The position numbers and the translations under genes were made by a program. Below, in pieces: positions 1,504 through 19,370 of a DNA stretch of 52,981 nt; position 1 is the first letter of the stretch, and the number at the start of each line of letters is the position of its first letter. The stretch spans positions 1-52,981 of the forward strand of contig JAFYPH010000041.1 of NCBI GenBank assembly GCA_017547585.1, read 5' to 3'. A model generated the notes under the pieces. The model was not told the DNA's origin. It worked only from the letters and a program-made list of their open reading frames with translations, and ran no database searches. Source of the DNA: Bacteroidaceae bacterium (GTDB lineage Bacteria; Bacteroidota; Bacteroidia; Bacteroidales; Bacteroidaceae).

Positions 1504-1509
1504 GGCTCT

Positions 1510-4679: not shown

Positions 4680-4696
4680 GCAAAAATCGTGCCAAA
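4680..4696 (-). promoter_or_regulatory. Sigma-54 (RpoN) promoter of the tolC gene
   Basis: Read on the minus strand the site is TTTGGCACGATTTTTGC: -24 box TGGCAC, spacer GATTT, -12 box TTGC. This is a full match to the TGGCAC-N5-TTGC consensus. The predicted transcription start is near 4668, about 16 nt before the ATG. The adaptor gene has the same element at 19264-19280. Confidence 0.88.
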
Positions 4697-4736
4697 CTTT
4701 TATTTTGTTGTTTTTCAGGTTTTTATCTGTTTTTGG

Positions 4737-4758
4737 CAGTGTCCGTTTTCGGACACTG
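4737..4758. promoter_or_regulatory. Palindromic upstream activator site for the tolC promoter
   Basis: A perfect inverted repeat, CAGTGTCCG-TTTT-CGGACACTG, is centred about 67 bp upstream of the -12 box. The core GTGTCCG-N4-CGGACAC is shared with 19317-19344, at the same distance from that promoter. This is the usual position for dimer binding by an NtrC-family enhancer-binding protein. No such regulator gene lies in the window. Confidence 0.82.
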
Positions 4759-4795
4759 TGTTCGCTTTTGTGGACGATTGTATAATTTTTCATAG

Positions 4796-5131
4796 GCCTT
4801 GCGGCCTACGCTGCACAATTTCGCCCTTACAGGGCTTTTATTTTCTTTTCATTTTAAACTCTCCCCTTTTTCAAGGGGGAGTGGCTGAAAACCGAGGGGG
4901 ATTTTTTGTTGTGGGCGTTGTTTTTTATCCCCCACCCGCAACTCACTTTAAGTTCGTTGCTCGTCCCCCTTAGTAAAGGGGACAGTTTTTTGCTTGCTAA
5001 AAGCTCCCCCTCTTGGTTAAGAGGGGGTGGCTGTAAGGCCGGGGGCGTTTGTTTATTTATTTATTACTTGTAGTGTTTCTAACTCCCTCCCCCTTTGGGT
5101 ACTCCCTCTTACAAAAGAGGGAGAGTTTTTT
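4796..5131. repeat. Hairpin repeat block upstream of the tolC regulatory region
   Basis: Between permease pair 4 (ending at 5204) and the tolC promoter there is no gene. It holds an AGGCCTTGCGGCCT hairpin near 4794, a CTCTCCCCTTTTTCAAGGGG unit near 4860, and a TCCCCCTTAGTAAAGGGGAC unit near 4966. A CCCCCTCTTGGTTAAGAGGG unit with tail lies at 5004-5050 and a CTCCCTCTTACAAAAGAGGG unit with its CTCCCTCCCCC lead at 5081-5131. Confidence 0.75.
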
Positions 5132-5203
5132 AGTTACTTTTTCAAAATGCTGTCCCTTATAAGAAAAGCTTGTTATTGTTATATAGAATATTTTTTCATT
5201 CTC

Positions 5204-6508
5204 TTACTCCTCTCTCAATGCATCGGCGGGCAGGATACGTGTCGCACGATAGACAGGAATCCATGTGCCGACGATTGTAATGAACAGCATTGCTACATAG
5301 GTTATTGCCGTAACCCACGCAAAATGGATATAGAAATTGTTCACTCCATATTCGGGGTTGGGCAAAAACATCTCTTTGTCGATGCTGCACACTCCCGGCT
5401 CGGCGAAACCCTCGGTGAGCACAAAATGCAGCACAATGGGCATTGCTGCGGCGAATGCGAGTGTCAGCAGAATGACGGCCTCGGTAATATACTGACGCAC
5501 GACGCGACTGCGCGAGGCGCCCATGCTGCGCATGATTCCAATATCGCTGCGGCGATTGTCCATGCGTGTCCAAAATGTGCCCAGCATGCACAGGAATATG
5601 CAGACGAGAGCGAAACTGTTGAGAATAATCTTTTGGTTGATTGTGTAGCGTGCTTCACGTTCAGTGTGCGTCTCTTCCTGAGTTTCGTCGAGCGTGAGCA
5701 CACTCACCTGAAAGTCGTTGTTCCTGTCAATCTGTGCCACAGCCTCTTTCACCTTTTGCGTGAAAGCATCGAGGCTCGTGCCCTCTTTCAGCTTCACTAT
5801 TCTCTTTGAACTGTAGCCCGCAATAGAGTAGAGGCTCGGCCTTTCGAACTTTATCATCGACGGCAACGGCTCTGTGTATGTGTCAAGCTGAAAATCGTCG
5901 TACACCCCGCGGATAGTATATTTTGATAGCGGGTCGCTGTGCGTTTTTCCGATAATCTCTGTGGTGCCGAAAAGTTTCATAGCCGCGTGGCGCGAAACAA
6001 AAATATCGTTTCCTGTATTTATATTCTCGGGCACGGTCAGCACTTTTCCGCTGTTTGCATCCTTAAGTCCCAATGTGGCGAACATATTGTGGTCGCCCTC
6101 CCAAACGTAGCAATACTGACATACATGTATTAACGAGTCTTTCTTTTCTGTATCGTAGTATATTTTGTCTATTAAGTGCATGTCGCTGTTGAACGCTCCC
6201 ACTCTCATATATGTGTCTATGCTGCTCTCGACCTCGGGTAGACTTTTTATTGCGTGTACGATGTTTGAGTGCAGGTTGTAAAGCGGTGAGTTCTCCTCGT
6301 CCTTTATCATTTCCGAGTAGTCAAAATCGAGCTTCACGCAGCATCTGTCGCGCTTTTCGTAGTTGTTGGGGATTGCTTTTGTGGCAAAAATTACATATAT
6401 GGGGTCGCTTATCATCCAAATGAAAATAGATGTCAGCAACAACACTCCGAATACTAAGCAGTTGTGCTTGCGTTCGTTCCACGCTTGATGTAAAATCTTT
6501 GTAATCAT
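5204..6508 (-). CDS. FtsX/MacB-like ABC transporter permease, type B (pair 4)
   Basis: 434 aa. It has the type B start MITKILHQAWNERKHN, TM1 near 18-40, and a periplasmic domain to about 290. Three C-terminal TMs carry SDIGIMRSMGASRSR and the end is LPADALREE. It lies 6 bp after its type A partner 6515-7846. Compared with 217-1503, the membrane C-terminal part is nearly identical in protein and roughly 90% alike by eye in DNA, while the periplasmic part is clearly different. This suggests duplication followed by diversification of the substrate-facing domain, or gene conversion of the membrane part. No ATPase domain. Substrate unknown. Confidence 0.9.
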   Translation of the reverse strand: MITKILHQAWNERKHNCLVFGVLLLTSIFIWMISDPIYVIFATKAIPNNYEKRDRCCVKLDFDYSEMIKDEENSPLYNLHSNIVHAIKSLPEVESSIDTYMRVGAFNSDMHLIDKIYYDTEKKDSLIHVCQYCYVWEGDHNMFATLGLKDANSGKVLTVPENINTGNDIFVSRHAAMKLFGTTEIIGKTHSDPLSKYTIRGVYDDFQLDTYTEPLPSMIKFERPSLYSIAGYSSKRIVKLKEGTSLDAFTQKVKEAVAQIDRNNDFQVSVLTLDETQEETHTEREARYTINQKIILNSFALVCIFLCMLGTFWTRMDNRRSDIGIMRSMGASRSRVVRQYITEAVILLTLAFAAAMPIVLHFVLTEGFAEPGVCSIDKEMFLPNPEYGVNNFYIHFAWVTAITYVAMLFITIVGTWIPVYRATRILPADALREE

Positions 6509-6514
6509 ACTCTT

Positions 6515-7846
6515 CTATTTTCTTCTGTTAAGTGAATATACAATGCTGTGGCGCATCTTTGCAGTCACCGGCAACAGTGCCGACACAATGTTTATGAACA
6601 TGCACACGATGAGTGTTGCCGCAAACAGTGTGGGGTTGAAAATCATTGAAAAATCTACTATCTGCTCTCCCCAATTGTCCATGTCCCAAATACTGCTGCT
6701 CAATACCTCTCCCGAATCGAACAAGAAGAGCATCCATCTGCTTGCTGTGAAAAGCAGCGTTGCGCTTATGGCAAAGCCCAGAATACCGCCGATGAGTGTA
6801 AGCAGCATATTTTCGGACAGCACCTGAAATATGATGCTTCCGGTGGTTGCGCCGTAGGCCTTGCGCACGCCCATTTCCACCATGCGGTTTTCCATGCGAG
6901 AGAATATCATTATACTTAGGCACAGTGCGGGTATCAGCAGAAAGGCGGCGATTATAAGTACAATTTCTTTTATGAAATTTCTGTACGCGTCGTTGCCATA
7001 ATATTCGCGGTCGTACACGCTCTCGACGTGTGTGAGAATGTGGTCGGCAATTTCGTATTTGCATGTTGCGCTGCCGGCATTGTAGCGGGCAATTTTCTCT
7101 TCAATCTCCTTTTTCAAAAGCTCTTTTTCCGATGCTTTTTTTGCCGTTGCGATAATCTTGTACATTCCCGCAAGTTCTTTTTTTGTGTTATCGAACCAAG
7201 GTTTATCTTTATCCAGTCCAAAAGGCATATATATTGCATAAGTCCTTGTTACGGCACTCGGTGCTTCTTTTATTACTCCCACGATAGTATGTTCCTCGCC
7301 ATCGACGTATATGTGCTTGCCTGCGACCTTATGTGTTGCGAAAAGTTCCATTGCTGTGCTGCGCGAGATTACCACCACGCGATTGTTGCTTTTAACATCC
7401 TGCTCACTGAACGGGTGACCGTCGATGAATCTGTATGTGTGCACTTTCCAGAACTGTTCGTCGGTGTACACAGCATATTCCTTTATCCTCTTTGAGCTTT
7501 TATCTGCTGTTGCCGACAATTTCATGAGATTCGATGTGCTGTAGCACGAAAGGTTGTCGAGGTATTTGCACTCATCTTTTATAAGTTCAGCAAGTTTCGG
7601 GGAGCAGCGATGGGTGTTTTTCTGCTCTCCATCTTCCTGGTGGTTTGTTATGGCGGTGATATTTCTTATATGCAGTGTTCTTTCGCGGTTCTCTTCGGGG
7701 TAGAGTGGTGCGAATTTTATGTACAGCACTGCAAAGGTTATCATTATCATTGTCACCGAGAGTGCTGTTCCTGCAATGTAGATGCTTGTGAACAGCCGGT
7801 GCTGCTTCATCATCGTCACTGCTTGGCGTAAAAATTGTTTAATCAT
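6515..7846 (-). CDS. FtsX/MacB-like ABC transporter permease, type A (pair 4)
   Basis: 443 aa. The type A N-terminus MIKQFLRQAVTMMKQHRLF is followed by TM1 near 19-44, a periplasmic MacB-like region and three C-terminal TMs. The coupling segment reads RMENRMVEMGVRKAYGAT near 318-335 and the end is SIVYSLNRRK. It is most similar to 1510-2829, and its type B partner is likewise most similar to 217-1503, so A and B seem to have been duplicated together. A repeat block of about 170 bp separates it from pair 3, while only 6 bp separate it from its own partner. Confidence 0.9.
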   Translation of the reverse strand: MIKQFLRQAVTMMKQHRLFTSIYIAGTALSVTMIMITFAVLYIKFAPLYPEENRERTLHIRNITAITNHQEDGEQKNTHRCSPKLAELIKDECKYLDNLSCYSTSNLMKLSATADKSSKRIKEYAVYTDEQFWKVHTYRFIDGHPFSEQDVKSNNRVVVISRSTAMELFATHKVAGKHIYVDGEEHTIVGVIKEAPSAVTRTYAIYMPFGLDKDKPWFDNTKKELAGMYKIIATAKKASEKELLKKEIEEKIARYNAGSATCKYEIADHILTHVESVYDREYYGNDAYRNFIKEIVLIIAAFLLIPALCLSIMIFSRMENRMVEMGVRKAYGATTGSIIFQVLSENMLLTLIGGILGFAISATLLFTASRWMLFLFDSGEVLSSSIWDMDNWGEQIVDFSMIFNPTLFAATLIVCMFINIVSALLPVTAKMRHSIVYSLNRRK

Positions 7847-7867
7847 ATGTTTTTATTTTTCTTTTTT

Positions 7868-8004
7868 ACTCCCCCTCTTGGTTAAGAGGGGGTGACCGTA
7901 AGGTCGGGGGCGTTTGTTTTTAGTTGCTGTTCAGACTCCCTCCGAGGCTTCGCCTCTCGCCCCTCTAAGATTAGAGGGGCAGTTTATTTGCCGTGGGGCG
8001 TTCG
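7868..8004. repeat. Hairpin repeat block between permease pairs 3 and 4
   Basis: Two adjoining repeat units fill the gap. One is the CCCCCTCTTGGTTAAGAGGG hairpin with GGTCGGGGGCG tail (7868-7912). The other is the CTCCGAGGCTTCGCCTCTCG unit with the CCCCTCTAAGATTAGAGGGG hairpin (7934-8004). The same two units occur in the same order at 3003-3138, so this two-unit block itself appears duplicated along with the permease pairs. Confidence 0.75.
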
Positions 8005-8014
8005 TCGTTTTTTT

Positions 8015-9343
8015 CTACTCCTCCTTCAATGCATCGGCAGGCAGAATCTTCGTTATTCGCCATGCGGGGATTGCTGCTCCGGCAATGGCAAAGAGCATCA
8101 GAATAATATATGTTGCGGCCGTCACCCATGCAAAGTGCAACGGGCCTCCAATGTCTACAAACTTAATATTAATCTGTCCATCCAAAGGATTCGTAAAGCC
8201 GTTCACATAGAGATAGTGCAGCACAAATAGCATTGCAACCGCAAAGCCAATGTTCACCAAAAGGGCAACCTCGGTAACAAACTGTTTGATGATAGCCTGC
8301 CTCGATGCACCCACACTGCGCATGATTCCAATTTCGCTCTTGCGTGCCGATGTTCTTATCCAGAATGCGCTTAACATTCCCAAAAACACGGTGAACAACG
8401 AGAAGAGTGCCATGCTGTTGTACATTGTCAGTTTGCTGGGAATCTCTCTTGTTTCGTTCATCTGCTCTCTAAAAATTTCGTTTGGAGTAAAACTCTGGCA
8501 GTATGCGTTTCCGGCTTTTAGCTCGGGCATAATCTCCTCTTTGAATCTCTTCTCGAACGCAACTCTGTCCACTCCCTTTTTCAGACGTATGTGAAGATTA
8601 ATCATCCTATATTCGGCAGGTTGCACATTTTTGCATCTGATAATAGTCTGTGGGGGAGTGCAGTAGTCTATAAGTTGCATATCTTTGAAAACCCCGCTTA
8701 TTGTCTGCCCGGCGTCCCCATAGTATATTTTCTTGCCGATAGCCTCGCTTGCACTGCCATAGAATTCCTTGGCTAAATTCTCGGAAACATATATGTTGCC
8801 CTCTGTATCATCTTTGCGAGGCTTGAATATTTCCCCCGTGAGAGCATCTTTCACCCTGAAAGTAGTAAAATAGTTGTTGCCCTCGATGTTGTACACTTCG
8901 TGTGTGTTGAAAGCGAGAGACTCTTTTCTTATAATCTCCCTTAGTTTTTCTTGGTCGCCACCGAGGTTTATGCTGTCTCTAAAATATCCCATAGTAAAGT
9001 ATGGTTGGTTTCCTCCCGGGAATTTTGTCTGTGTCGTAAAGCAGTAGCTCTCAACCTCGGGCAGGTTACGCACAATGTTGTGCAGGTGAATGTAACTCTC
9101 GCCTTTGAGCTCGGCCTGCTCGTTCGCACGCTTGAATCGGTAGTCGTAAGGCTCGTAGTGGGCGAAGTCTATCATATATGTGCCATCAATGTCGTAACCA
9201 TCTTCAATGTTGTCGTGACGCGCGAGTGTAAACAGTGGGTCGAACGCCATCCACAGCATGATGCTTGCAGCGATAATCTCTACCACTATCCAACTGTTCT
9301 CGCGACGTTCGTTGTATATTATGTGAAATATTTTCTTTATCAT
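8015..9343 (-). CDS. FtsX/MacB-like ABC transporter permease, type B (pair 3)
   Basis: 442 aa. The start MIKKIFHIIYNERRENSW is followed by TM1 near 18-38, then a large periplasmic domain and three C-terminal TMs. The coupling motif is ARKSEIGIMRSVGASRQ and the end is ITKILPADALKEE. The A-B junction is only 5 bp (partner 9349-10641), which favours translational coupling and equal amounts. It is more distant from the type B copies of pairs 4 and 5 than they are from each other. Inner membrane; no ATPase domain; substrate unknown. Confidence 0.9.
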   Translation of the reverse strand: MIKKIFHIIYNERRENSWIVVEIIAASIMLWMAFDPLFTLARHDNIEDGYDIDGTYMIDFAHYEPYDYRFKRANEQAELKGESYIHLHNIVRNLPEVESYCFTTQTKFPGGNQPYFTMGYFRDSINLGGDQEKLREIIRKESLAFNTHEVYNIEGNNYFTTFRVKDALTGEIFKPRKDDTEGNIYVSENLAKEFYGSASEAIGKKIYYGDAGQTISGVFKDMQLIDYCTPPQTIIRCKNVQPAEYRMINLHIRLKKGVDRVAFEKRFKEEIMPELKAGNAYCQSFTPNEIFREQMNETREIPSKLTMYNSMALFSLFTVFLGMLSAFWIRTSARKSEIGIMRSVGASRQAIIKQFVTEVALLVNIGFAVAMLFVLHYLYVNGFTNPLDGQINIKFVDIGGPLHFAWVTAATYIILMLFAIAGAAIPAWRITKILPADALKEE

Positions 9344-9348
9344 GGTGG

Positions 9349-10641
9349 TTATCTTTTATGGTACAACGATTGTATAATATCTTTTCTCAATGCAAACAGT
9401 GTGGGCACGAGTGCCGATGCAATGTTCAGCAAAGCGCACATTAGCAGTGCACAAAGGAAGATGGTGGGGTTCAAAAGCATTTCGACGCTCAACTGGTTGC
9501 CTTCCTCGCTATTGTAGAATATATTGCTGTCGAGCAAATTGGTCATGCGGTAGTTGAAAATGTACACTACGGCAAAAGAGAGCAGTAACCCTGCAACTGC
9601 TCCCAACAGCGTAAGTAACATATTCTCCCACAGCACTTGCGACACTATCGCTCGCTTGGTGGCACCGTATGCTCGGCGCACGCCTACCTCCACCAAGCGG
9701 CTGTTCATGCGCGAGGATATCATTCCTCCCAAGTTAAGCGCGGGAATGAAAAGCACGGCGAGTATTATGTAAACGTAAATTCTTATAGCGTCCCAAATGC
9801 CATCGTCTCCGTTAAGGAAAAGAGCATCCTGCCAATAGTTTTTAATGTACAGTTCATAGTCGCCCTTCTGCTCGTTTGGTTGATAGTATCGGTGGAATAT
9901 GCTTTCAATCTCTTGTTGCAGTGCTTCTCTTTTGCCATCGTGTGCGAGTGCGTATATGTGGAAATGCTTCTCGTCGTTGTTATATGGGTTAGTGTAAAAA
10001 CTCGCAAAAGGATTGTAGATAGACAGCCATACTCTTCCGTAGCTGTTGGGGGTGCATTGCGTAACATCCTGCACGACACCCACTATGCGGTGGTGTTGGC
10101 CGTTTATCTTTATCTCCCTGCCGACGACCTTTGTGGACGCGAAAAATTGCATGGCGAGCGACTCGCTCACTACTGCTACATTTTCGTGCATCTCCTTTTC
10201 GGTGAAGCCCTTTCCGTCGATGAATTTATAGTCGTATACCTGCCACCAGCCGTCGCTGACAAATTTTATTCTCTCTTCTATTTCTATGCTTTTGCCGTCT
10301 GCTGTTATCGGATGCCGGTTATACGAGGCGTAGACATCGTACAACGCCATAGCCTTCATGTGCTTACATTCGCTTTTAAGCGCCTCGACAAAGTCCAGAT
10401 TGAAAAAATCTGAACCATTGTGTTGATTCTTCCCGGGGTTTACCTTGTGATTTTCGCCGGTTAAATAGAGTATTTCGCCTCGGTGGTATTCGGGGTATAT
10501 TTTTCCTAAATTTATGTAGAAGACGATGAAAAGTACCATAGTAATGGCTATGCTGACGGCTGTTCCCGTGATGTATATTCCCGTGAACAACTTGTGCTGT
10601 TTCATCATTGTCAGCGCTTGACGCAGGGTTTGTTTAATCAT
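9349..10641 (-). CDS. FtsX/MacB-like ABC transporter permease, type A (pair 3)
   Basis: 430 aa. The start MIKQTLRQALTMMKQHKLF is followed by TM1, a periplasmic domain and three C-terminal TMs. The coupling segment is RMNSRLVEVGVRRAYGAT and the end is DIIQSLYHKR. The C-terminal ending matches the type A copies at 13401 and 16387 rather than those at 1510 and 6515, giving two type A subgroups. It is the first permease after the ATPase gene, separated by repeats and a long AT-rich hairpin. Confidence 0.9.
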   Translation of the reverse strand: MIKQTLRQALTMMKQHKLFTGIYITGTAVSIAITMVLFIVFYINLGKIYPEYHRGEILYLTGENHKVNPGKNQHNGSDFFNLDFVEALKSECKHMKAMALYDVYASYNRHPITADGKSIEIEERIKFVSDGWWQVYDYKFIDGKGFTEKEMHENVAVVSESLAMQFFASTKVVGREIKINGQHHRIVGVVQDVTQCTPNSYGRVWLSIYNPFASFYTNPYNNDEKHFHIYALAHDGKREALQQEIESIFHRYYQPNEQKGDYELYIKNYWQDALFLNGDDGIWDAIRIYVYIILAVLFIPALNLGGMISSRMNSRLVEVGVRRAYGATKRAIVSQVLWENMLLTLLGAVAGLLLSFAVVYIFNYRMTNLLDSNIFYNSEEGNQLSVEMLLNPTIFLCALLMCALLNIASALVPTLFALRKDIIQSLYHKR

Positions 10642-10668
10642 GGTTTTTGTTTTTGTTTCTTGTTTTTT

Positions 10669-10926
10669 ACTCCCCCTCTTGGATAAGAGGGGACAACGCG
10701 AGTGAGCGTTGTTTGCGACGACGGGAACTTTAGTTCCCCAAAGGAGTACCGAGTTTTCGAGGCTTCATAAGGTCGGGGGCGTTTGTTTGCTTGTCTTTTT
10801 TTCAAACTCCCTCCCCCTTTTACTAAACCTCGCCTTAGGCTCGGCACTCCTTTGGGAATATAAATATTCCGTCGTCGCAAACATTGCTCATTCGCAATGT
10901 CCCTTTTATCCAAGAGGGAGAGTCTT
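10669..10926. repeat. Composite hairpin repeat block between ATPase and pair 3
   Basis: The CCCCCTCTTGGATAAGAGGG unit starts at 10669 but is interrupted before its GGTCGGGGGCG tail by about 75 bp. That insert contains AACGCGAGTGAGCGTT and GGGAACTTTAGTTCCCC. From 10805 to 10926 a long form of the CTCCCTC...GAGGGAG unit carries an internal TCGGCACTCCTTTGGGAATA and AATATTCCGTCGTCGCAAAC segment. The long form recurs at 11913-12033 and 16120-16233. The two inserts are partly reverse-complementary to each other. Confidence 0.7.
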
Positions 10927-10943
10927 TGCTTGTTGTTTTTTAA

Positions 10944-10981
10944 GCATTTAAAGGCAATTTTTTGAAATTGCCTTTAAATGC
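10944..10981. other. Long perfect AT-rich hairpin just after the ATPase gene
   Basis: There are two 17-base arms (GCATTTAAAGGCAATTT and its exact complement) with a 4-base loop, starting 12 bp past the ATPase stop codon. It is unrelated to the GC-rich repeats. No U tract follows on either strand, so it is not a convincing terminator. A 3' mRNA-stabilising or processing hairpin for the adaptor-to-ATPase part of the message is a plausible role (inference). Confidence 0.7.
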
Positions 10982-10992
10982 CAATATTCAAT

Positions 10993-11658
10993 TTATTCTA
11001 CTTGACGACCGTCGAAGAAACGGATGGTGCGCGAGGTCTGTTTCGCTTGCTCCTCGTTGTGAGTAACCATCACAATGGTGCGGCCATCCTCGCGGTTGAG
11101 TTTGTGGAGAATCTCCATAACCTCGGCACCCATTTTTGAGTCGAGGTTACCGGTGGGCTCGTCGGCGAGGATAATCTCGGGGTTGCCGATGATGGCGCGG
11201 GCAATGGCTACACGCTGGCACTGACCACCCGACAGCTGTGTGGGCATGTGGAACATACGGTGGGTGAGTCCCACGCGGGCGAGCACCTCTTTGGCAAGGC
11301 GTGTGCGCTCTTTTGCGCTAATTTTGCGGTAGAGCAGGGGCAGCTCCACATTGTCGAGCACGTTGAGCGAGTTTATAAGATGGAAACTCTGGAATACAAA
11401 GCCCAGCGTGCGGTTACGGAAGGCTGCAAGCTCCTTTTCGTCCATCTGGTCCACTGTGGTGCCGGCAATCTCTATGGTGCCGCTTGTGGGCTTGTCGAGC
11501 AATCCCATGATGTTGAGCAGTGTCGATTTTCCGCATCCCGAGGGGCCCATGATGCTGAGGAATTCTCCCTTCTTTACTTCGATGTTTACATTCTCGAGTG
11601 CTTGTGTTTCAATGGAGTCTGTGCGATAAATTTTGTTTACTCCTGTAAGTTTAATCAT
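10993..11658 (-). CDS. ABC transporter ATP-binding protein, MacB/LolD type
   Basis: 221 aa, a complete single nucleotide-binding domain. Walker A is GPSGCGKST at 38-46, the signature [14 protein letters not shown] is near 140-155, Walker B with catalytic Glu is [13 protein letters not shown], and the H-loop is VMVTHNEE. It belongs to the LolD/MacB/FtsE group of cytoplasmic ATPases that dock under FtsX-type permeases. It is the only ATPase gene in this ten-permease locus, sitting between pairs 2 and 3. If nothing is supplied from elsewhere, it must power all five pairs. GC-rich repeats lie on both sides and the hairpin 10944-10981 follows its 3' end. Confidence 0.95.
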
Positions 11659-11710
11659 AATCGTAAATATTTAATTGTTTATAATGTTTTTAATTTTCCT
11701 TTCTTTATTA

Positions 11711-12033
11711 AACTCCCCCTCTTGGATAAGAGGGGGTGGCCTTTAGGCCGGGGGCGTTCGATGATTGTTATTTTTCTAACTCCCTCCCCCCTGCGGGGTA
11801 CTCCCTCTTACAAAAGAGGGAGAGTCTTTTAGTTGCCATTGCTTCTAACTCCCCCTCTTGGTTAAGAGGGGGTGGCCTTTAGGCCGGGGGCGTTCGATGA
11901 TTGTTGTTTTTCTAACGTCCTCCCCCTTTTACTAAGCCTCGCCTTAGGCTCGGCACTCCTTTGGGAATATAAATATTCCGTCGTCGCAAACATTGCTCAT
12001 TCGCAATGTCCCTCTTACAAAAGAGGGAGAGTC
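11711..12033. repeat. Four-unit hairpin repeat block between pair 2 and the ATPase
   Basis: Two CCCCCTCTTGG(A/T)TAAGAGGG units with GGCCGGGGGCG tails (11711-11760 and 11848-11896) alternate with two CTCCCTC...GAGGGAG units. The latter are a short form at 11778-11825 and the long form at 11913-12033. The alternation suggests tandem duplication of a two-unit module. No gene or promoter was seen in this gap of about 400 bp. Confidence 0.75.
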
Positions 12034-12059
12034 TTTCGGTTGGGGCATTTGCTATTTAC

Positions 12060-13370
12060 TTACTCTCTTAATGCATCGGCGGGCAGCGAACGTGTGATGC
12101 GCACAGCCGGAAGCAGCGACCCTGCAATGGCAATTGCGCTAATGAGCAGGTAGGCAATGGCTGTGACGATGGCAAAGTGGGGCAGTGCGCGGTTGTGCAG
12201 ATAACTTTGGTCGGGGGTCTCGTTGTGTACCCACGTGGGTACTTTGGCGAGCGGCTCGGCGAAGCCCTCGACGTATATGTAGTGCGCGATGAGAGGCATT
12301 GATACGACGAAGGCAACTGTGACGAGTATCATTGCTTCGGTGACAAACTGCCTCACGGCGCTGCTGGCGGTTGCTCCCATGCTGCGCATGATGCCAATGT
12401 CGCGGCGACGGCTGTTGGTGCGTATCCAGAATGCGCTGAACACTCCCATGAAGGCGCAGAAGAGCGCAAAGCCCGACAGCCCTGTATAGAGACGGTACTT
12501 GTTGGTGATGTTGTATTGCTTGTCGTACTCCTCTATGCAATCCATGTACGATTCCAATCCCATAATATGGTAGATGCCGTGGCTGTATTTGGGCATAAAT
12601 TCATTTTCGAACTTCTTCTTGAATTCATCTTCGTCGGCGCTATCCTTCAGCCTAAAATATATTTCGTCGCGGAAGGTGTGTTTGTCGACGTTGTTGTTGC
12701 AGTAAAGAACGATTGGGGTGTATTCGTCGTAGCTGATCATCTGTAAATCTTCGAACACTCCTAAAATTGTGAATGAATCGTGGTGTACATTTATGAATTT
12801 CTTTCCAACGACGTCTGTGGTGCCGAAAAGCGCCATAGCTTGTCGGCGCGACAGATAGGCGCCATCCTTTCCTGCATAATCGGCCTGTTGCAGCACCTTG
12901 CCTGTCTTTACATCTATTGCTCTCACCGTCTCGAAGAAGCGGCTTTTTTCGTTGGCTACAATATTGTAGACACGCGCATTCTTCCAATCTATGAGGCTGT
13001 CGGGCTTGTCGTCGGTAACAGCCACCATGGTCGATGAATATCCAGCGGGGTTGGGCTCCAGTCCAGCTTGAGACATGAAGCAGCATTCAATTTCGGGGAG
13101 ACTGTTTAATGCATTGGTTAATTGAGCCAGAAATTCTGCTTTGTTATTTTCACTTGCCTGGTAGCTTGATGGGTCGGTGACAAAAGCCTCGTACTTCACT
13201 CTATATACTTTTTCGGGGGTGTAGCCTTTGGGCAGGTTGCCGCGGCACACAAGAGTGAACAGTGGGTCGATGGCGAGCCACAGGAAGATGATGGCGACTA
13301 TAAGTTCTAGAAAGAGCCATGCATTTTGCTTGCGCTCGTTCCATATTTGGTGAATGATTTTTGTTATCAT
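12060..13370 (-). CDS. FtsX/MacB-like ABC transporter permease, type B (pair 2)
   Basis: 436 aa. The start MITKIIHQIWNERKQNAWLF is followed by TM1 near 18-40 and a periplasmic domain to about 290. Three C-terminal TMs carry RRRDIGIMRSMGATASS and the end is ITRSLPADALRE. The N-terminal segment WNERKQNAWLFLEL is shared with 14703-16028, so the two type B copies upstream of the ATPase form a subgroup. It follows its type A partner by about 30 bp. The segment between TM3 and TM4 (GFAEPLAKVPTWVH...) is variable among paralogues. Substrate unknown. Confidence 0.9.
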   Translation of the reverse strand: MITKIIHQIWNERKQNAWLFLELIVAIIFLWLAIDPLFTLVCRGNLPKGYTPEKVYRVKYEAFVTDPSSYQASENNKAEFLAQLTNALNSLPEIECCFMSQAGLEPNPAGYSSTMVAVTDDKPDSLIDWKNARVYNIVANEKSRFFETVRAIDVKTGKVLQQADYAGKDGAYLSRRQAMALFGTTDVVGKKFINVHHDSFTILGVFEDLQMISYDEYTPIVLYCNNNVDKHTFRDEIYFRLKDSADEDEFKKKFENEFMPKYSHGIYHIMGLESYMDCIEEYDKQYNITNKYRLYTGLSGFALFCAFMGVFSAFWIRTNSRRRDIGIMRSMGATASSAVRQFVTEAMILVTVAFVVSMPLIAHYIYVEGFAEPLAKVPTWVHNETPDQSYLHNRALPHFAIVTAIAYLLISAIAIAGSLLPAVRITRSLPADALRE

Positions 13371-13400
13371 GGTGGTTGTAATTTATGGTAGTTTTTATTG

Positions 13401-14648
13401 CTATCTTCTATGATACAGCGACTGAATAATATCCTTCTTCAGTGCTATGAGTGTGGGCACAAGAGCCGAAGCAATATTCAGCACAAACGTTAGAGCCACA
13501 ATGCAGATAATAACCGTAGGGTTCAGCAGCATGTCTGCATTTATTTCGCGGGGCGAGAGGTCGTTCACGCGTGTGTCGAAGAAGGCTGTTATCCAACTGC
13601 TGCCGGTGATGACGACAAGGTAACTGAGGGCTACTCCTAAAATGGTGCCGGCGATGGTCAGCATTAGATTTTCCCATAACACCTGTGTGATAATTTCGCC
13701 ATTGGTGGCGCCGTAGGCCTTGCGAATGCCTATTTCGTCCAAGCGGCTGTCCATGCGCGAAGAAATCATTCCGCTGAGATTAAGCGCGGGGATGAAAAGA
13801 AAAGCCAACAGAATGTAAAGATATTTCCCCATTGCCTCGAATGGGGTTGTCTCTGCGTCGCAGTCGAGCGCATTCTGCCAATATTTTTCAAGATCCATTG
13901 TGTAGGTAAAATTCTTGGGTCTCGTTTGAGTGTATCGGTTGAATGCATCGTTAATCTCGGCCATACATTTATCGATGTTGTCCGAAGTTATATATGCCTT
14001 ATAATGGCCAAGAAACTCATGTTCGTTGTAAAATGCATATGCGGTCCATATGTTGCCTTGTGTGATGGGGGTGCAACCGCTTGCTGCTTCCACCACTCCC
14101 ACTATTCTATAGGGCGTATCATAGATGTTAAGGCTTTTGCCGGCAACGTGTGTGTCGGCAAAGAGTTCCTTTGCAAGGGTGGTGCTGATTACTGCCACAT
14201 TTTCGTTCATCTGCTCTTTGGTGATGGGCTGTCCATCAACGAATCGGTAGTTGAACACCTGCCAATATTCGGCGTTTACATTGGCTACGTATTCTTCTGT
14301 TTTCTTGCTTTTGTCGGCTGTTTCGACATCTATTTTATTGCGTGTGAGCAGCGCTATCTTATCAATATTTTTAGCCTCGCTTTTCAATAGGTTGCAGAAT
14401 TTTTCTGATACCCCCATTGCGCGTGCGGTTGTGCAAACGTCGTTTTTCTCGCTTTCCTGTGTGCGTTCTATCACCACCATACGCTGGCGGTTGTACTCGG
14501 GGTAGATGGGGCCCAATTTAATGTAAAAGATGATGAACAGGGTCATTGCAAGGGCTATGCTCACGGCTGTGCCTATGAGGTACATTCCTGTGAACAGCCG
14601 TTGCTGTTTCATCATTGTCCATGCTTGTCGGAAAAATTGTCGTATCAT
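13401..14648 (-). CDS. FtsX/MacB-like ABC transporter permease, type A (pair 2)
   Basis: 415 aa, the shortest permease of the set, mainly because of a smaller periplasmic domain. The start MIRQFFRQAWTMMKQQRLF is nearly the same as that of 16387-17685. The coupling segment is RMDSRLDEIGIRKAYGAT and the end is DIIQSLYHRR. TM1 is near 19-44 and three TMs lie in the C-terminal 150 residues. It is separated from the type B permease of pair 1 by 54 bp holding a fragment of the repeat. Confidence 0.9.
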   Translation of the reverse strand: MIRQFFRQAWTMMKQQRLFTGMYLIGTAVSIALAMTLFIIFYIKLGPIYPEYNRQRMVVIERTQESEKNDVCTTARAMGVSEKFCNLLKSEAKNIDKIALLTRNKIDVETADKSKKTEEYVANVNAEYWQVFNYRFVDGQPITKEQMNENVAVISTTLAKELFADTHVAGKSLNIYDTPYRIVGVVEAASGCTPITQGNIWTAYAFYNEHEFLGHYKAYITSDNIDKCMAEINDAFNRYTQTRPKNFTYTMDLEKYWQNALDCDAETTPFEAMGKYLYILLAFLFIPALNLSGMISSRMDSRLDEIGIRKAYGATNGEIITQVLWENLMLTIAGTILGVALSYLVVITGSSWITAFFDTRVNDLSPREINADMLLNPTVIICIVALTFVLNIASALVPTLIALKKDIIQSLYHRR

Positions 14649-14673
14649 AGTTTGTTAATTTATAATTCTTTTT

Positions 14674-14700
14674 TTACTCCCTCCCCCTTGGGGCGTTTGT
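14674..14700. repeat. Truncated repeat unit between pairs 1 and 2
   Basis: ACTCCCTCCCCCTTGGGGCG is a remnant or minimal form of the CTCCCTCCCCC repeat. It shows that even the short inter-pair gap carries this element. Confidence 0.6.
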
Positions 14701-14702
14701 TT

Positions 14703-16028
14703 TTACTCTCTTAATGCGTCAGCGGGACGCTCTTTAACCGTTGCTGCTGTGGGGATTATTGCTCCTATTATGCTTATGAGCACCACAAAAAGGTAGCTTG
14801 CAATGGTAACTACTGCGAAACGTGGCAGGGGTTGGCTGTGCAAATATACCCCCTGTTGATACCCGACGCTTCTTAAATAACCTTCCAATGGATGTGCAAA
14901 GCCGCTAACATACACTTTGTGGGTGACGAGGGGCAGTGCAAGCACGAAGGCGACGGTCGACAGCATCACCGCTTCGGTTACAAACTGTCGCACAATGGTG
15001 GTGCGTGTGGCGCCTATGCTTTGCATGATGCCTATTTCGCGTCGGCGCGCCGAGGCTCGCAACCAAAATGTACCGAAGATACCCATAAATCCGCAGAGTA
15101 GGGCAAAGAGCGAGAGAATAATATTCTGTCGGTAGAGGTTGTTTATTCCGTATATTTCAGTAGCGCTTTCTATCTCTTTTTGTATCAATTCTATTCCCGA
15201 ACAATAGTAGTTGCCGACATTCAGCTTGGGTTGTACTTCGGCTGTGAAGCGTTTCACGAATTTATCGGCATCGACTCCATCCTTTAGCCTTATCGTCCAA
15301 GTGCGCATGAAAAGATAGTCGCCGCCTACATGGGTCAGCAGCCTCTCCATTACAACCATTATAGGCAAATGTTCGTCGTAGTTTTTGTATTGGAAATTTT
15401 CTATTACTCCCATTACTTTCCAACGGAAATTTTTGTCGCCTGCATCATAGAATTCTTCTCCCACACAGTCGGTTGTACCAAATAGTTCCATGGCTGCAAG
15501 TTCGCTGATGTAGCCATTCATAATGCCCGGTTGAATCTCGCCTTTATGCTCGACAACCTTGCCGGTTTTTGCGTCCTTTATCCTATAGGTCTTGAAAAAG
15601 TTGTAGTCATAGGCGTAGTAGTATTTCATCGGTACGGTTACTTTTTTACCGTCGGCACGCTGTGTGCTGTCTACACAGCATTTCCCTTCGAAGCCCGAAC
15701 CGCTTCCCGGATAAGAGAATGCAATGCTGTGTGCCTCTATTTCGGGTATTTCTTTTATTATGTTAATGCATTGCATATAGGCGTCGCCAATGCATTGCTT
15801 GTCTTCGAGCTTGGGGTCGTATTTTGTGCTGCCCTCAAGGTGTTTGTTGAATTTTATTCTATATACATTGTTGTTGTCGTAATTCCGGGGAATATTGCTA
15901 CGGCTGACAAGGTCGACTATGGGGTCGATGCTGAGCCACACGAAGAGGCTCACGACGAATAATTCTAGGAAGAGCCATGCATTTTGCTTGCGCTCGTTCC
16001 ATATTTGATGTAGGACTTTTTTTATCAT
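14703..16028 (-). CDS. FtsX/MacB-like ABC transporter permease, type B (pair 1)
   Basis: 441 aa. The start MIKKVLHQIWNERKQNAWLF is followed by TM1 and a large periplasmic domain. Three C-terminal TMs carry ARRREIGIMQSIGATRTT, and the end VKERPADALRE departs from the LPADALRE of the others. This A-B junction is unusual: a repeat block of about 360 bp separates it from its partner 16387-17685, where the other pairs have 5-30 bp. This suggests repeat insertion after the pair had formed (inference). Confidence 0.9.
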   Translation of the reverse strand: MIKKVLHQIWNERKQNAWLFLELFVVSLFVWLSIDPIVDLVSRSNIPRNYDNNNVYRIKFNKHLEGSTKYDPKLEDKQCIGDAYMQCINIIKEIPEIEAHSIAFSYPGSGSGFEGKCCVDSTQRADGKKVTVPMKYYYAYDYNFFKTYRIKDAKTGKVVEHKGEIQPGIMNGYISELAAMELFGTTDCVGEEFYDAGDKNFRWKVMGVIENFQYKNYDEHLPIMVVMERLLTHVGGDYLFMRTWTIRLKDGVDADKFVKRFTAEVQPKLNVGNYYCSGIELIQKEIESATEIYGINNLYRQNIILSLFALLCGFMGIFGTFWLRASARRREIGIMQSIGATRTTIVRQFVTEAVMLSTVAFVLALPLVTHKVYVSGFAHPLEGYLRSVGYQQGVYLHSQPLPRFAVVTIASYLFVVLISIIGAIIPTAATVKERPADALRE

Positions 16029-16046
16029 TGTGTTTCTATTTTTTTG

Positions 16047-16378
16047 TTTCCCGCTCTTGGTTAATAGGGGGTGACCGCAAGGTCGGGGGCGTTTGTTTGT
16101 TTATTACTTGTAGTGTTTCTAACTCCCTCCCCCTTTGGGGGCTTCACTAGTTCAGCACTCCTTTGGGAATATAAATATTCCGTCGTCGCAAACATTGCTC
16201 ATTCGCAATGTCCCTCTTACAAAAGAGGGAGAGTTTTTTAGTTGCCATTGCTTCTAACTCCCCCTCTTGGTTAAGAGGGGGTGGCCTTCAGGCCGGGGGC
16301 GTTCGATTGTTTACTTATTATTTTTCTCTAACGCCCTCCCCCCTTTCGGGGAGAGTTTTCAGGCCGGGGGCGTTTGTA
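16047..16378. repeat. Hairpin repeat block inside permease pair 1
   Basis: The gap holds a degraded CTCTTGGTTAATAGGGGGTG unit at 16047-16093, a long-form CTCCCTC...GAGGGAG unit at 16120-16233, and a CCCCCTCTTGGTTAAGAGGG unit at 16257-16305. At 16333-16378 there is a hybrid in which the CCTCCCCCCTTTCGGGGAG head joins the GGCCGGGGGCG tail of the other unit. The hybrid points to recombination between repeat types. No gene seen. Confidence 0.75.
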
Positions 16379-16386
16379 TATCTTTT

Positions 16387-17685
16387 CTATCTTCTATTAT
16401 ACAGTGATTCGATAATATTGGTGCGCAGGGCAAGCACCGTGGGCACAAGAGCCGAGGCAATGTTCAGCACCACTGTTACGAGCAGCACAATTGCAACAAT
16501 AGTGGGGTTCAGCAGCATTTCCATTGTGAGTCGCGACGTTGGTTGCTGGTGAATGCCTGTGTCGAGCAGAGTGAGTATCCAATTGTATCCGCCGGCTACC
16601 AACAGGTACGAGAGAAGAAGTCCCACGATTGCTCCTGCGAAGGTGAGTAGCAGATTTTCGTACAGCACCTGCGAAATTATCTGTCGGGTGGTGGCACCGT
16701 AGGCGCGACGCACGCCTATTTCGTCGAGGCGGCTGTTCATGCGTGTGGAAATCATTCCGCACAAGTTCAGGGCAGGGATAAAAAGGAATGCGAGTATCGC
16801 GTACAGGTATTTTGCAATGCCATCGAACAAATTTCCTTCCTTGCCGAATGTCTCGTATAGCTGGAAGGCATTTTCCCAATGCTTAATAAGCGACAGATGG
16901 AATTCAGAATCGTCGTAGCCCGAAAATTGCTGTATATATTTGTTGAAAATATCCTTTATTTCGTTTTTCAGTGCATCGACCTCATGCGCCGATTTTGCAA
17001 GCATAAACATTTGTTTGTTGCCAATAATCTCTTTGTCGCTATTTTGCAATTTGTCCATATAGTAGGCCGGTGCCCAAATGTTGCCTGACGTGTAACCCTC
17101 TACTCTGTCGGTGGTGGAGGGCTCCACGACGCCTACTATCTTGTGTGGGGTAGAGCCTATGCTCACATATTCGCCGCAGACATCGTGGCGGGCAAAAAGC
17201 TTGTCGGCGAGTGTCGAGGTTATTACTGCCACCGGCTCATACTCCTCGCTTTCGTTGAATCCGCGTCCGTGGATGAAACGAAAATCGAAGAAGCGCCAAT
17301 ATTCGCTATTGACGTATTCGAGCTCTTCGGCTGTGTCTGTGTTGTTTTTTACGTTTGTAATCAGCTGTTTATCATGTGTACTTTCCAATTGTATGCACAT
17401 TTTGTCTATCTGTTTGGCCTCTTTTCTTATGGCATCGACAAGCTGTTGCGTTGCTGCACCAAATTCGCTGTAGTCGTCGCTCTTGTGGAATTCCTGTATC
17501 CACACAAAGCTCAACATTCTACCACGATTGTATTCGGGGTACAAAGGCCCCAATTTTATATATAGGGTGATGATGACCGCCATTGCCATGGCTATGCTTA
17601 TGGCGGTGCCGGCTATGTACATGCCTGTGAACAGCTTGTGCTGTTTCATCATTGTCCATGCTTGTCGGAAAAATTGTCGTATCAT
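16387..17685 (-). CDS. FtsX/MacB-like ABC transporter permease, type A (pair 1)
   Basis: 432 aa. The start MIRQFFRQAWTMMKQHKLF is followed by TM1 near 19-44, a periplasmic MacB-like domain and three C-terminal TMs. The coupling segment is RMNSRLDEIGVRRAYGAT and the end is NIIESLYNRR. It is the first permease gene transcribed after the adaptor gene and is separated from it by a repeat block. Inner membrane; no ATPase domain; substrate unknown. Confidence 0.9.
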   Translation of the reverse strand: MIRQFFRQAWTMMKQHKLFTGMYIAGTAISIAMAMAVIITLYIKLGPLYPEYNRGRMLSFVWIQEFHKSDDYSEFGAATQQLVDAIRKEAKQIDKMCIQLESTHDKQLITNVKNNTDTAEELEYVNSEYWRFFDFRFIHGRGFNESEEYEPVAVITSTLADKLFARHDVCGEYVSIGSTPHKIVGVVEPSTTDRVEGYTSGNIWAPAYYMDKLQNSDKEIIGNKQMFMLAKSAHEVDALKNEIKDIFNKYIQQFSGYDDSEFHLSLIKHWENAFQLYETFGKEGNLFDGIAKYLYAILAFLFIPALNLCGMISTRMNSRLDEIGVRRAYGATTRQIISQVLYENLLLTFAGAIVGLLLSYLLVAGGYNWILTLLDTGIHQQPTSRLTMEMLLNPTIVAIVLLVTVVLNIASALVPTVLALRTNIIESLYNRR

Positions 17686-17717
17686 AGCTTATTTATTTTT
17701 ATTATCTTTTTATTCTA

Positions 17718-17961
17718 ACTCCCCCTCTTGGTTAAGAGGGGGTGGCTGTAAGGCCGGGGGCGTTTGTTTGTTTATTACTTGTAGTGTTTCTAACTCCCTC
17801 CCCCTTTGGGTACTCCCTCTTACAAAAGTGGGAGAGTTTTTTAGTTGCCATTGCTTCTAACTCCCTTACTTTGTAAAGGGGACTATTGTTGGGTGTTTAC
17901 AATCTAATCCTTTTTTGTCCGTTTTTTTGTGAACGGCGGCAACTTACAAAAAATCCGCCGT
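17718..17961. repeat. Hairpin repeat block between adaptor gene and pair 1
   Basis: A CCCCCTCTTGGTTAAGAGGG unit (17718-17766), a short CTCCCTC...GGGAGAG unit (17790-17838) and a degraded TTACTTTGTAAAGGGGAC unit near 17865 are present. A separate ACGGCGG/CCGCCGT hairpin (17933-17961) lies just after the adaptor stop codon. This is the rightmost repeat block; the units were not seen beyond 17.9 kb. Confidence 0.7.
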
Positions 17962-17981
17962 CCACTGTGCATTTATTAACC

Positions 17982-19229
17982 TTATTTTAATTTAATCTTT
18001 TCTTTGTAAGAGAATTCCGATGCGTCGGAGATTACAACCTCCTCGCCTTGGGCGAGTCCCTCGACAACTTCAACGTGGTCGAAGTTGGAACTGCCGAGAA
18101 TTACTTTGCGGCGTATAAGCTCGTTATTTTCGTTGCGCACAAAGAGGTTGTATGTGCCTTCGCCTACGTAGTACGAGGCATTTTTTATGCGCAGCACGTC
18201 GTCGTGAATGGAATTCATTATGTAGACGTCGGTGCGTAGTCCCGGGCGCAACTTCTTGTGGTTGTCGTGTGTGAGACGCACTTCGAACTGTATGCTTCCG
18301 TTGGTGCTCTTGGGTGAAACTGTTCCTATGCGACCTTCGAGCTTCTCGGTACCTACTTTCACAAGTACCTTCTTGCCGGGTGAGACATATTCGCTCATCA
18401 CGTCGGAGATTTGTGCTTTCACAATGTAGTGGTCGAGGTCGCTTATTATGGCTATCTGTGTACCGCTACCTACCTGCGCGCCTATCTGCTCGTTTATATG
18501 TGTGAGGATGGCTTTGCGGGGCGAGAGTATGCGTGCGTCGTCGAAGGTGCGTTTCATCTCTTCGAGCTTTTTGGTGAATATCGCAAATTCAAGCTCCTGC
18601 ACTTTTACGTTCGAGGCTTTTATCTCTTTGTCGTTTTTCAGCTGCTCGCGCTGCTGCTCCAAGCGCAGACGCGCTGTCTGCACGGCCATTTCTGCCTGAC
18701 GCACCTTGTCGGCTGTTCCCGAGCCTATGCTGTCGAGATAGCGTTCGTTGCGCAGTTCCGCCTCCAAGCGGTCGAGCTCCATCGCATTTATCTTGATGTT
18801 CATCTCCTGACTCGAAATTTCGGTCTTGTTTCTCAGACGCAGCTGTTCGAGCTGGTTGCGACGAATCTCTTTCTCGTCGAGCAGTTTTTTGTACTCATTC
18901 TCGGTGCTTGTGAGGTCGAGACGCAGCAGGGGAGTGCCTGCTTCCACGCTGTCGCCACTGTGGCAGTAGACTTCCACTATGCGCGAACTGATGGGCGAGT
19001 TTATAATCTCCTCAAAGGCGGGGTGTACCTCTCCCGAGGCTGTTACGCTGGTCTCAATGGTGCCTCGATCCACGGTGGAGAATGTGAGGCTTTTTGCATT
19101 CACGCTTCTGCGTGCGTAGTTTATTCCTGCAATGGCAATGATTGCAAGAAGCGCGAGGGCTCCCACTATTTTTCCTATGCGGGTAAACTGCTTTTTTCTT
19201 TGTTCTTTTTTTGGTATTGCTCTATCCAT
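17982..19229 (-). CDS. Periplasmic adaptor (membrane-fusion protein, HlyD/MacA type)
   Basis: 415 aa. An N-terminal cytoplasmic tail and a TM near 22-44 (GKIVGALALLAIIAIAGINY) are followed by a first half of a biotinyl-lipoyl-like domain near 70-105 (SRIVEVYCHSGDSVEAGTPLLRL). A long coiled-coil hairpin occupies about 110-225, then come the second lipoyl half and beta-barrel/membrane-proximal domains. Family role: it bridges the inner-membrane permeases and the TolC channel in the periplasm. It is first in the export operon and has a strong sigma-54 promoter with a palindromic upstream site. The only adaptor in the locus, it is presumably shared by all five permease pairs (inference). Confidence 0.93.
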   Translation of the reverse strand: MDRAIPKKEQRKKQFTRIGKIVGALALLAIIAIAGINYARRSVNAKSLTFSTVDRGTIETSVTASGEVHPAFEEIINSPISSRIVEVYCHSGDSVEAGTPLLRLDLTSTENEYKKLLDEKEIRRNQLEQLRLRNKTEISSQEMNIKINAMELDRLEAELRNERYLDSIGSGTADKVRQAEMAVQTARLRLEQQREQLKNDKEIKASNVKVQELEFAIFTKKLEEMKRTFDDARILSPRKAILTHINEQIGAQVGSGTQIAIISDLDHYIVKAQISDVMSEYVSPGKKVLVKVGTEKLEGRIGTVSPKSTNGSIQFEVRLTHDNHKKLRPGLRTDVYIMNSIHDDVLRIKNASYYVGEGTYNLFVRNENNELIRRKVILGSSNFDHVEVVEGLAQGEEVVISDASEFSYKEKIKLK

Positions 19230-19263
19230 ACTTTTTTGTGTGTACTTTCTACCTTTATATATA

Positions 19264-19280
19264 GCAAAAACCGTGCCAAA
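19264..19280 (-). promoter_or_regulatory. Sigma-54 (RpoN) promoter of the adaptor/export operon
   Basis: The minus strand reads TTTGGCACGGTTTTTGC: -24 box TGGCAC, spacer GGTTT, -12 box TTGC. The predicted start is near 19252, leaving a leader of about 23 nt. The element is nearly identical to the tolC promoter at 4680-4696, including flanking bases (AAAGTTTGGCACG). Confidence 0.9.
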
Positions 19281-19316
19281 CTTTTAAAGTGTTGATAATC
19301 AATAAAAATAAAAAAT

Positions 19317-19370
19317 CAGTAGTGTCCGATTTCGGACACTACTGTTCGGTTTTGCGTACACTTTTGTACG
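19317..19370. promoter_or_regulatory. Palindromic upstream activator sites for the export operon
   Basis: A perfect inverted repeat with 12-base arms (CAGTAGTGTCCG, ATTT, complement) lies at 19317-19344, centred about 66.5 bp from the -12 box. A second, smaller palindrome CGTACA-CTTT-TGTACG lies at 19355-19370. The first shares the core GTGTCCG-N4-CGGACAC and the spacing with the tolC site. A TGTTCG(G/C)TTTTG segment follows the palindrome in both places, hinting at a further weak half site. Expected binder: an NtrC-family activator. Confidence 0.82.

Follow-up and report, generated by a model that had tools for sequence, protein, structure and literature searches.

Two probable sigma-54 promoters with matched operators, likely driven by an NtrC-type regulator, serve a multi-permease exporter cluster in a Bacteroidaceae bacterium

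The window analysed here, a 52,981-nucleotide contig (JAFYPH010000041.1, hereafter C38) from a Bacteroidaceae genome assembled at 85% completeness (GCA_017547585.1; 2.26 Mb in 65 contigs), carries on its minus strand a periplasmic adaptor gene, ten FtsX permease genes in five pairs, one LolD/MacB-type ATPase gene and tolC. Matched elements, each combining a sigma-54 −24/−12 box with a palindrome, precede the adaptor gene and tolC. We consider it highly probable that both are sigma-54 promoters of this one exporter cluster, driven by an NtrC-type regulator encoded on contig C23 through tandem operators and IHF-type DNA bending.

The motif TTTGGCACG(A/G)TTTTTGC occurs exactly twice in the window, at 4680-4696 and 19264-19280, both on the minus strand, and in none of 100 shuffles. 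Its boxes lie 27 bp before the ATG of tolC and 34 bp before that of the adaptor gene, each 44-45 bp from a perfect TGTCC-N6-GGACA palindrome. The longer form of this palindrome, GTGTCCG-N4-CGGACAC, has its only perfect copies in the genome at these two places, and a tolerance of two mismatches yields no further copy in the window. An earlier sequence-only reading of this DNA had picked out both boxes and both palindromes, and we recovered them as described except for one distance: the palindrome centre, placed 66.5-67 bp from the −12 box, is separated from the midpoint of the −12 GC by 67.0 bp at tolC and by 66.0 bp at the adaptor gene. The TGTTCG(G/C)TTTTG segment that it reported is likewise present at both sites; we interpret it as belonging to a second, imperfect operator. 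The promoters comprise the following features.

19264..19278, minus strand: sigma-54 −24/−12 box TGGCACGGTTTTTGC upstream of the adaptor gene
19285..19297, minus strand: IHF-like site TATCAACACTTTA (a perfect WATCARNNNNTTR) of the adaptor promoter, its W 19 nt upstream of TGGCAC
19322..19339, no strand: proximal operator of the adaptor promoter, perfect palindrome GTGTCCG-N4-CGGACAC
19344..19359, no strand: distal imperfect operator GTTC-N8-GTAC of the adaptor promoter, centre 21 bp from the proximal one
4680..4694, minus strand: sigma-54 −24/−12 box TGGCACGATTTTTGC upstream of tolC
4701..4713, minus strand: IHF-like site position of the tolC promoter, AAACAACAAAATA, two mismatches, weak
4739..4756, no strand: proximal operator of the tolC promoter, perfect palindrome GTGTCCG-N4-CGGACAC
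4760..4775, no strand: distal imperfect operator GTTC-N8-GGAC of the tolC promoter, centre 20 bp from the proximal one

Searched across the genome, the composite TGTCC-N6-GGACA-N28-48-TGGCAC-N5-TTG is found exactly twice, at the two window sites, and no perfect palindrome lies away from a sigma-54 box. The genome also encodes rpoN (contig C10, E 3e-47) and two HU/IHF-family proteins. We then searched 301 genomes of the family with a strict pattern (box ending TTGC) and a relaxed one (box ending TTG). The strict search detected the element in 25 genomes from 9 of 30 genera, with two hits in total for the reversed control; 25 of the 26 elements listed have an adaptor, TolC, ATPase or permease gene immediately downstream, and the remaining one (L058) lies just behind a kinase gene. 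Because many boxes in the genus end in TTGA, this search undercounts, and the relaxed pattern was found in 48 genomes from 11 genera with no reversed match in any of the 301.

The adaptor gene is present in 19 of the 44 genomes of the genus, and all 17 with readable upstream DNA carry operator and box with at most one mismatch each (12 of these boxes end in TTGA). TolC orthologues are present in 17 of the 44 genomes, 15 of them readable upstream, and the element precedes tolC in four: the present genome (G000), G186, G317 and G252, with deviating boxes in the last three (TTGA, and in G186 also TGGTAC). In relatives that lack the tolC element, a single element stands before the adaptor gene, with the entire cluster, regulator and kinase included, behind it; this makes the tolC promoter look like an internal promoter added in one clade. 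From this distribution it appears to be an addition of the nearest relatives within the genus; some other genera also have an element before tolC. Given the single element before whole clusters in relatives, the two transcripts proposed previously, from the adaptor gene to the fourth permease pair and from tolC to the fifth, are probably not how the cluster is divided.

A scan reaching outside the family, with one genome for each species, listed 80 elements (of at least 119 stretches), so that its counts are lower bounds. Among the matches listed are further Bacteroidales, Massilia and other Burkholderiales, Sphingomonadales, Xanthomonas, Azospirillum and Kordiimonadaceae. A transporter gene lies within 400 bp downstream of 55 of the 80 elements, six stretches end too soon, and 19 have other neighbours. 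The gap between operator and box is 39-46 bp in 70 of the 80, where 30-50 bp was allowed.

The likely activator binding these operators is encoded on C23, which carries two further FtsX permease pairs, an NtrC-type regulator and a kinase, in that order, and which overlaps the window end.

1..136, minus strand: exact 136-bp overlap with the start of C23
C23:6168-7529: NtrC-type regulator gene, 453 aa, with REC domain, sigma-54 activation domain and Fis-type helix-turn-helix
C23:7548-8855: PAS-type kinase gene, 435 aa

This pair matches the earlier prediction of an NtrC-family regulator with a sensor kinase. Because the overlap lies in repetitive DNA, the join between C38 and C23 rests on synteny in relatives. 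In the congener G186 a single contig runs from the adaptor gene to TolC, a permease pair, regulator and kinase; in G317 TolC is followed by a permease pair, regulator and kinase, with the adaptor gene about 14 kb away, as in the window. Regulator and kinase come directly after TolC in other genera (G284, G008 and G254), and the stretches examined in G269, G245 and G232 hold TolC, regulator and kinase only. This gene order indicates that the regulator belongs to this kind of cluster, and we infer that in this genome, too, regulator and kinase lie downstream of tolC. The tolC transcript should then run on into both genes.

The C23 regulator falls short of the cut-off in every one of the 24 NCBIfam models listed at E 1e-40 (NtrC, AtoC, ZraR, GlrR and others): the best, AtoC, gives 414 bits against a cut-off of 714, and GlrR gives 321 against 763. 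In a hydropathy scan, the C23 kinase, ten of its orthologues and the kinase of a second system on contig C43 all show a pair of hydrophobic stretches close together at the N-terminus. With so short a gap between these stretches, the kinase probably senses within the membrane or through a partner.

Between operator and box lies an IHF-like sequence, its first base usually 19 nt upstream of TGGCAC. Among the 59 AT-rich intervals of the discovery set, 23 contain a perfect match (0.2 in shuffles). A held-out set of 39 family elements, taken from the relaxed search outside the discovery set, gave 22 perfect matches and 35 with at most one mismatch (0.19 and 2.9 in shuffles). The IHF consensus used here is the familiar one. 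FNR sites differ in spacing, and an FNR-like reading of TTGAT-N-ATCAA was set aside on account of its N1 spacing and because conservation extends to the TTR half. A second operator upstream (at most two of ten mismatches) is present in 34 of 53 Bacteroidota elements (about 0.9 in shuffles) and 28 of 29 proteobacterial elements outside Xanthomonas (about 0.8), although shuffles overstate significance because the sequences in all sets are related. That scan used N6 spacing and did not score the window's own N8 distal sites. Four probable chance loci (L086, L102, L128 and L130) were removed before the tests of the second operator, of T5 tracts and of flank extension by group; they were kept in the spacing counts, the IHF discovery set and the own-family flank and transporter counts. 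The window's enhancer appears to be a tandem dyad of a type conserved with the regulator, its distal sites being imperfect copies. The accessible text of one paper quotes the IHF consensus and mentions IHF at glnA of Xylella (PMC3224663).

Operators, boxes, spacing, the gene order of relatives, conservation, and the rpoN, regulator, kinase and HU/IHF-family genes are all read from sequence; regulator binding, IHF binding, phosphorylation and feedback would connect them as follows. The kinase at the cluster end would sense a signal, probably within the membrane, and phosphorylate the NtrC-type regulator, which would bind the tandem TGTCC-N6-GGACA operators, spaced about 20 bp from each other. 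With the stretch from operator to box bent by an IHF/HU-family protein, the regulator would make contact with sigma-54 RNA polymerase poised at TGGCAC-N5-TTG and open the promoter for transcription of the cluster. As regulator and kinase are probably encoded downstream of tolC in this same cluster, the transcript would include them, and induction would feed back positively on itself. The tolC promoter may act as an internal booster, adding output late in a long, many-permease cluster. The computational checks proposed with the sequence-only reading all came out in favour of its interpretation, the division into two transcripts apart, and the analysis adds the tandem second operator, an IHF-like site at a fixed position and a paralogous GTGC-N6-GCAC module.

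Several observations weigh against this model. The regulator gene sits on another contig, and the 136-bp overlap that leads to it is repetitive intergenic DNA. In a few congeners (G101, G200 and G227) regulator and adaptor genes are divergently arranged, so self-feedback is not general. The tolC element is missing in 11 of the 15 congeneric genomes with readable upstream DNA, and the G186 tolC box is degenerate (TGGTACGATTTTTGA). None of 39 GC-rich intervals (mostly proteobacterial, some from Bacteroidota) comes within one mismatch of the IHF consensus, and the window's own tolC interval has two. The second operator occurs in only 3 of 12 Xanthomonas loci (0.3 in shuffles), and all 12 precede a small secreted-looking protein and a SpoU-type methylase gene rather than a transporter. 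Finally, the element is rare in Bacteroidia at large: it was found in 2 of 295 genomes, G000 included, in a class-wide set with only six genomes of the family, which indicates that the module is not general in the class.

It is very improbable that the boxes are chance or housekeeping-promoter sequences. We rejected the box by itself as evidence, since TGGCAC-N5-TTGC occurs 27 times in the genome (three times for the reversed control), among the matches listed mostly inside repeat elements. None of the other 25 boxes, however, forms part of a TGTCC-N6-GGACA composite, and conservation with narrow spacing across genera argues against chance. Inexact palindromes were also discarded as a wider regulon. 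A tolerance of two mismatches gives 8 matches, 2 of them perfect and 6 inexact, and the reversed control gives 13. Only the perfect sites are therefore distinctive, and no box with two or fewer mismatches lies within 120 bp of any of the six inexact loci (L011-L016). Somewhat less remote, and still unlikely, is binding by a different regulator, such as that of C43 or one on C20 that lacks a REC domain. In its favour, this incomplete genome yielded three full sigma-54 activators; against it, C43-type systems have an operator of a different kind, GTGC-N6-GCAC, with a spacing of its own, and the C23-type regulator travels with the TCC elements.

We regard it as equally unlikely that the palindromes are only intrinsic terminators of upstream genes, with the boxes acting without them or not at all. 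This idea draws on one feature of the adaptor promoter:

19317..19344, minus strand: 12-bp hairpin around the adaptor operator, with ATTTTTTATT next on the coding strand, terminator-like

It also draws on the flanks of related elements. Across 51 own-family elements the inverted repeat extends on average 3.55 bp beyond the core, against 1.55 bp in a swapped-flank control (maximum 2.33 of 1000), and the extended flanks carry letters that differ between relatives yet remain complementary. TTTT comes next in 11 of 28 elements with at least three extra pairs and in 4 of 23 with fewer. The analysis was repeated on own-family loci only, since the Bacteroidota group of the group-wise test included loci L155-L193. 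A terminator, however, needs no conserved TGTCC/GGACA core, no second operator and no set distance to a box and IHF-like site. At tolC, no T tract accompanies the palindrome on the coding strand, there is no excess flank extension in proteobacterial, Xanthomonas or GTGC elements, and T5 follows only 1 of 30 proteobacterial copies. The simplest account of the hairpin would be a dual role, in which the core is the operator, and the covarying flanks and T tract form a terminator shielding the operon from read-through in many Bacteroidota. We give this a real chance, somewhat short of even. The conserved core combined with covarying flanks and a T tract favours it, as does the presence of T5 within 20 nt of 21 of 53 Bacteroidota elements (4.6 in shuffles); against it, the pattern is not seen in Proteobacteria or in GTGC-type elements, 23 of the 51 own-family elements extend by less than 3 bp, and TTTT comes next in only 15 of the 51. 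Such a dual element refines the explanation by regulator-driven sigma-54 promoters and is compatible with it.

Two kinds of look-alike sequence occur elsewhere in the genome. Tandem repeats of about 77 bp, in 2 to 6 consecutive copies each ending in TGGCACTAT(A/C)TTTGC or TGGCACCATATTTGC, mimic sigma-54 boxes (loci L022-L048; C60:7062-7464, C52:35679-35845, C25:32479-32571 and C2:1683-1776). They could be housekeeping-type promoter repeats, in line with TAnnTTTG, which we take to be a motif of such promoters. On C36, an intergenic one-mismatch palindrome (L020:4854-4871) has a T tract, GTTTTTTATT, next on the minus strand and is a probable ordinary intrinsic terminator; by eye, with no search made, its neighbours are an FKBP-type isomerase gene and a small gene.

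The second system, on C43, comprises permeases, ATPases, adaptor and TolC divergent from a regulator and kinase. Its box is preceded by two GTGC-N6-GCAC operators at gaps of 56 and 77, identical to those in G101. This pattern is found in 56 of the 301 family genomes (4 hits for the reversed control) and spans 81-86 bp in 61 of the 69 listed matches, where 63-93 bp was allowed; some of the rest look like chance matches in coding DNA. We compared recognition helices at loci where a regulator was found, leaving out incomplete ones (L115 and L154, for example). Of 38 GTGC loci given, 29 have a regulator and 24 a readable helix, six rows repeating a gene. The residue after the recognition-helix arginine is F or Y in all 24, and A, Q, G, P, S or T in all 35 TCC-type regulators (16 from Bacteroidota, 19 proteobacterial). 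Although 18 of the 19 proteobacterial regulators show greater overall similarity to the C43 regulator than to that of C23, they have the TCC-type helix. This supports the idea that the residue may help to choose the operator. A broader proposal is tentative: a cross-phylum code for activators of ABC exporters, in which A/Q/G/P/S/T or F/Y would correspond to TGTCC-N6-GGACA or GTGC-N6-GCAC, each with its own distances to the box, and in which the Bacteroidota TCC operator would be nested in a covarying terminator hairpin, serving as enhancer in DNA and terminator in RNA. At two loci, L303 (G158:C29) and L305 (G116:C58), elements of both types stand about 0.4 kb apart on the same strand, and what follows the TCC element is a gene for a secreted-looking protein, at least 487 aa long and with no Pfam match. 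Cross-wiring of the two systems is possible there.

The 19 species-scan loci without a nearby transporter are mixed. Twelve are from Xanthomonas (L138, L085, L093, L101, L103, L113, L117, L123, L129, L142, L145 and L151); their small protein has repeated VQVRPSAEQ-like motifs and no Pfam match, and is possibly an exported peptide precursor. The regulator found at a distance of 4-5 kb carries a different helix (HRQLLYRKL; six rows), and none was assigned. In the proteobacterial L109 and L144, the element precedes a PCMT gene followed by a TolC-type OEP gene (a pcm-tolC pair); the 8-kb locus of L144 holds no other exporter genes. A remote tolC may belong to the same regulon in loci of this kind. 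The L133 element stands before an 800-aa MacB_PCD/FtsX permease, L131 before a secreted DUF3836 protein, and L147 is divergent; L102 and L130 are probably chance. Elements before other envelope or secreted proteins (L292, L317 and L131, with a DUF2807 adhesin-like protein, an S41 peptidase and DUF3836) suggest a small envelope regulon in a few relatives.

The cluster itself brings together the gene set of a MacAB-TolC-type exporter: adaptor, ATPase, FtsX/MacB permeases and TolC.

17982..19229, minus strand: HlyD/MacA-type periplasmic adaptor gene, the cluster's first gene
12060..17685, minus strand: four FtsX permease genes (16387-17685, 14703-16028, 13401-14648, 12060-13370)
10993..11658, minus strand: LolD/MacB-type ATPase gene, the sole ATPase gene found in the cluster
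5204..10641, minus strand: four FtsX permease genes (9349-10641, 8015-9343, 6515-7846, 5204-6508)
3174..4652, minus strand: TolC-type outer-membrane channel gene
217..2829, minus strand: FtsX permease pair downstream of tolC (1510-2829, 217-1503)

One ATPase gene for so many permease pairs of the same kind (five in the window and two on C23) is an unusual ratio for a MacB-like exporter. The cluster resembles MacAB-TolC, LolCDE and the darobactin exporter DarBCD in its adaptor, ATPase, FtsX/MacB permeases and TolC, and the ATPase matches the DarD and LolD models, though below their cut-offs. It differs from them in that single ATPase gene and in scores under the cut-offs: the adaptor reaches 62.9 against 342 for the MacA equivalog, and for the MacB model, with a cut-off of 966, the ATPase reaches 233.6 and the two permeases scanned 24.7-25.1. 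Interspersed repeats (CTCCCCCTCTT...AAGAGGGGGAG and related) lie between permease genes at 4820-5080, 10660-10960 and 11700-12050 and at the ends of C23; these repeats are the probable cause of the assembly break that separates C38 from C23.

NtrC-type systems that act on sigma-54 promoters with the help of IHF are textbook knowledge, and the module resembles NtrB/NtrC, ZraSR, AtoSC and GlrKR/QseEF in its REC-AAA-Fis regulator, PAS-type kinase, tandem palindromic enhancers, TGGCAC-N5-TTGC promoter and putative intervening IHF-like site. In contrast to those systems, it has another operator, an exporter as its target and a kinase nearly without a periplasmic loop by hydropathy. The enterobacterial GlrR/QseF operator, TGTC-N10-GACA, shares the half-site TGTC/GACA and a sigma-54 promoter, with N10 where this one has N8. 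BceS is an intramembrane-sensing kinase, and BceS-like kinases share the two hydrophobic stretches close together at the N-terminus; the kinase here differs in being of PAS type and in acting, as proposed, through a sigma-54 activator.

An in silico study of sigma-54 regulons (PLoS One 2025, PMC12316311) reports, in its accessible portions, an enrichment of such promoters ahead of COG0577 FtsX-type permeases in Gammaproteobacteria, Opitutia and Bacteroidia, described there as the first evidence of the link; for these transporters, those portions give neither operator nor regulator, and neither an IHF-like site nor a recognition code. In Flavobacterium psychrophilum, also of the Bacteroidota, the available text of PMC9723704 describes mapped sigma-54 promoters with −24/−12 boxes, one of them mutagenized, and three predicted activators left unassigned by the authors. 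The targets named there (protein quality control, envelope stress, gliding and exported proteins) do not include this exporter. Searches of the open-licence literature turned up no report of this operator serving as a sigma-54 enhancer for ABC exporters.

As far as those partial sources go, sigma-54 targets in Bacteroidota have been predicted or partly mapped, and activators have not been paired with operators. Here, a single module can be named with its candidate regulator, operator, probable bending site, promoter and target, and it recurs in both Bacteroidales and Proteobacteria; a paralogous system with another operator provides an internal comparison. What such two-component systems and multi-permease exporters respond to would thereby become testable with reporters, and the two systems may offer a natural setting for reading which amino acids of a Fis-type helix choose which operator.

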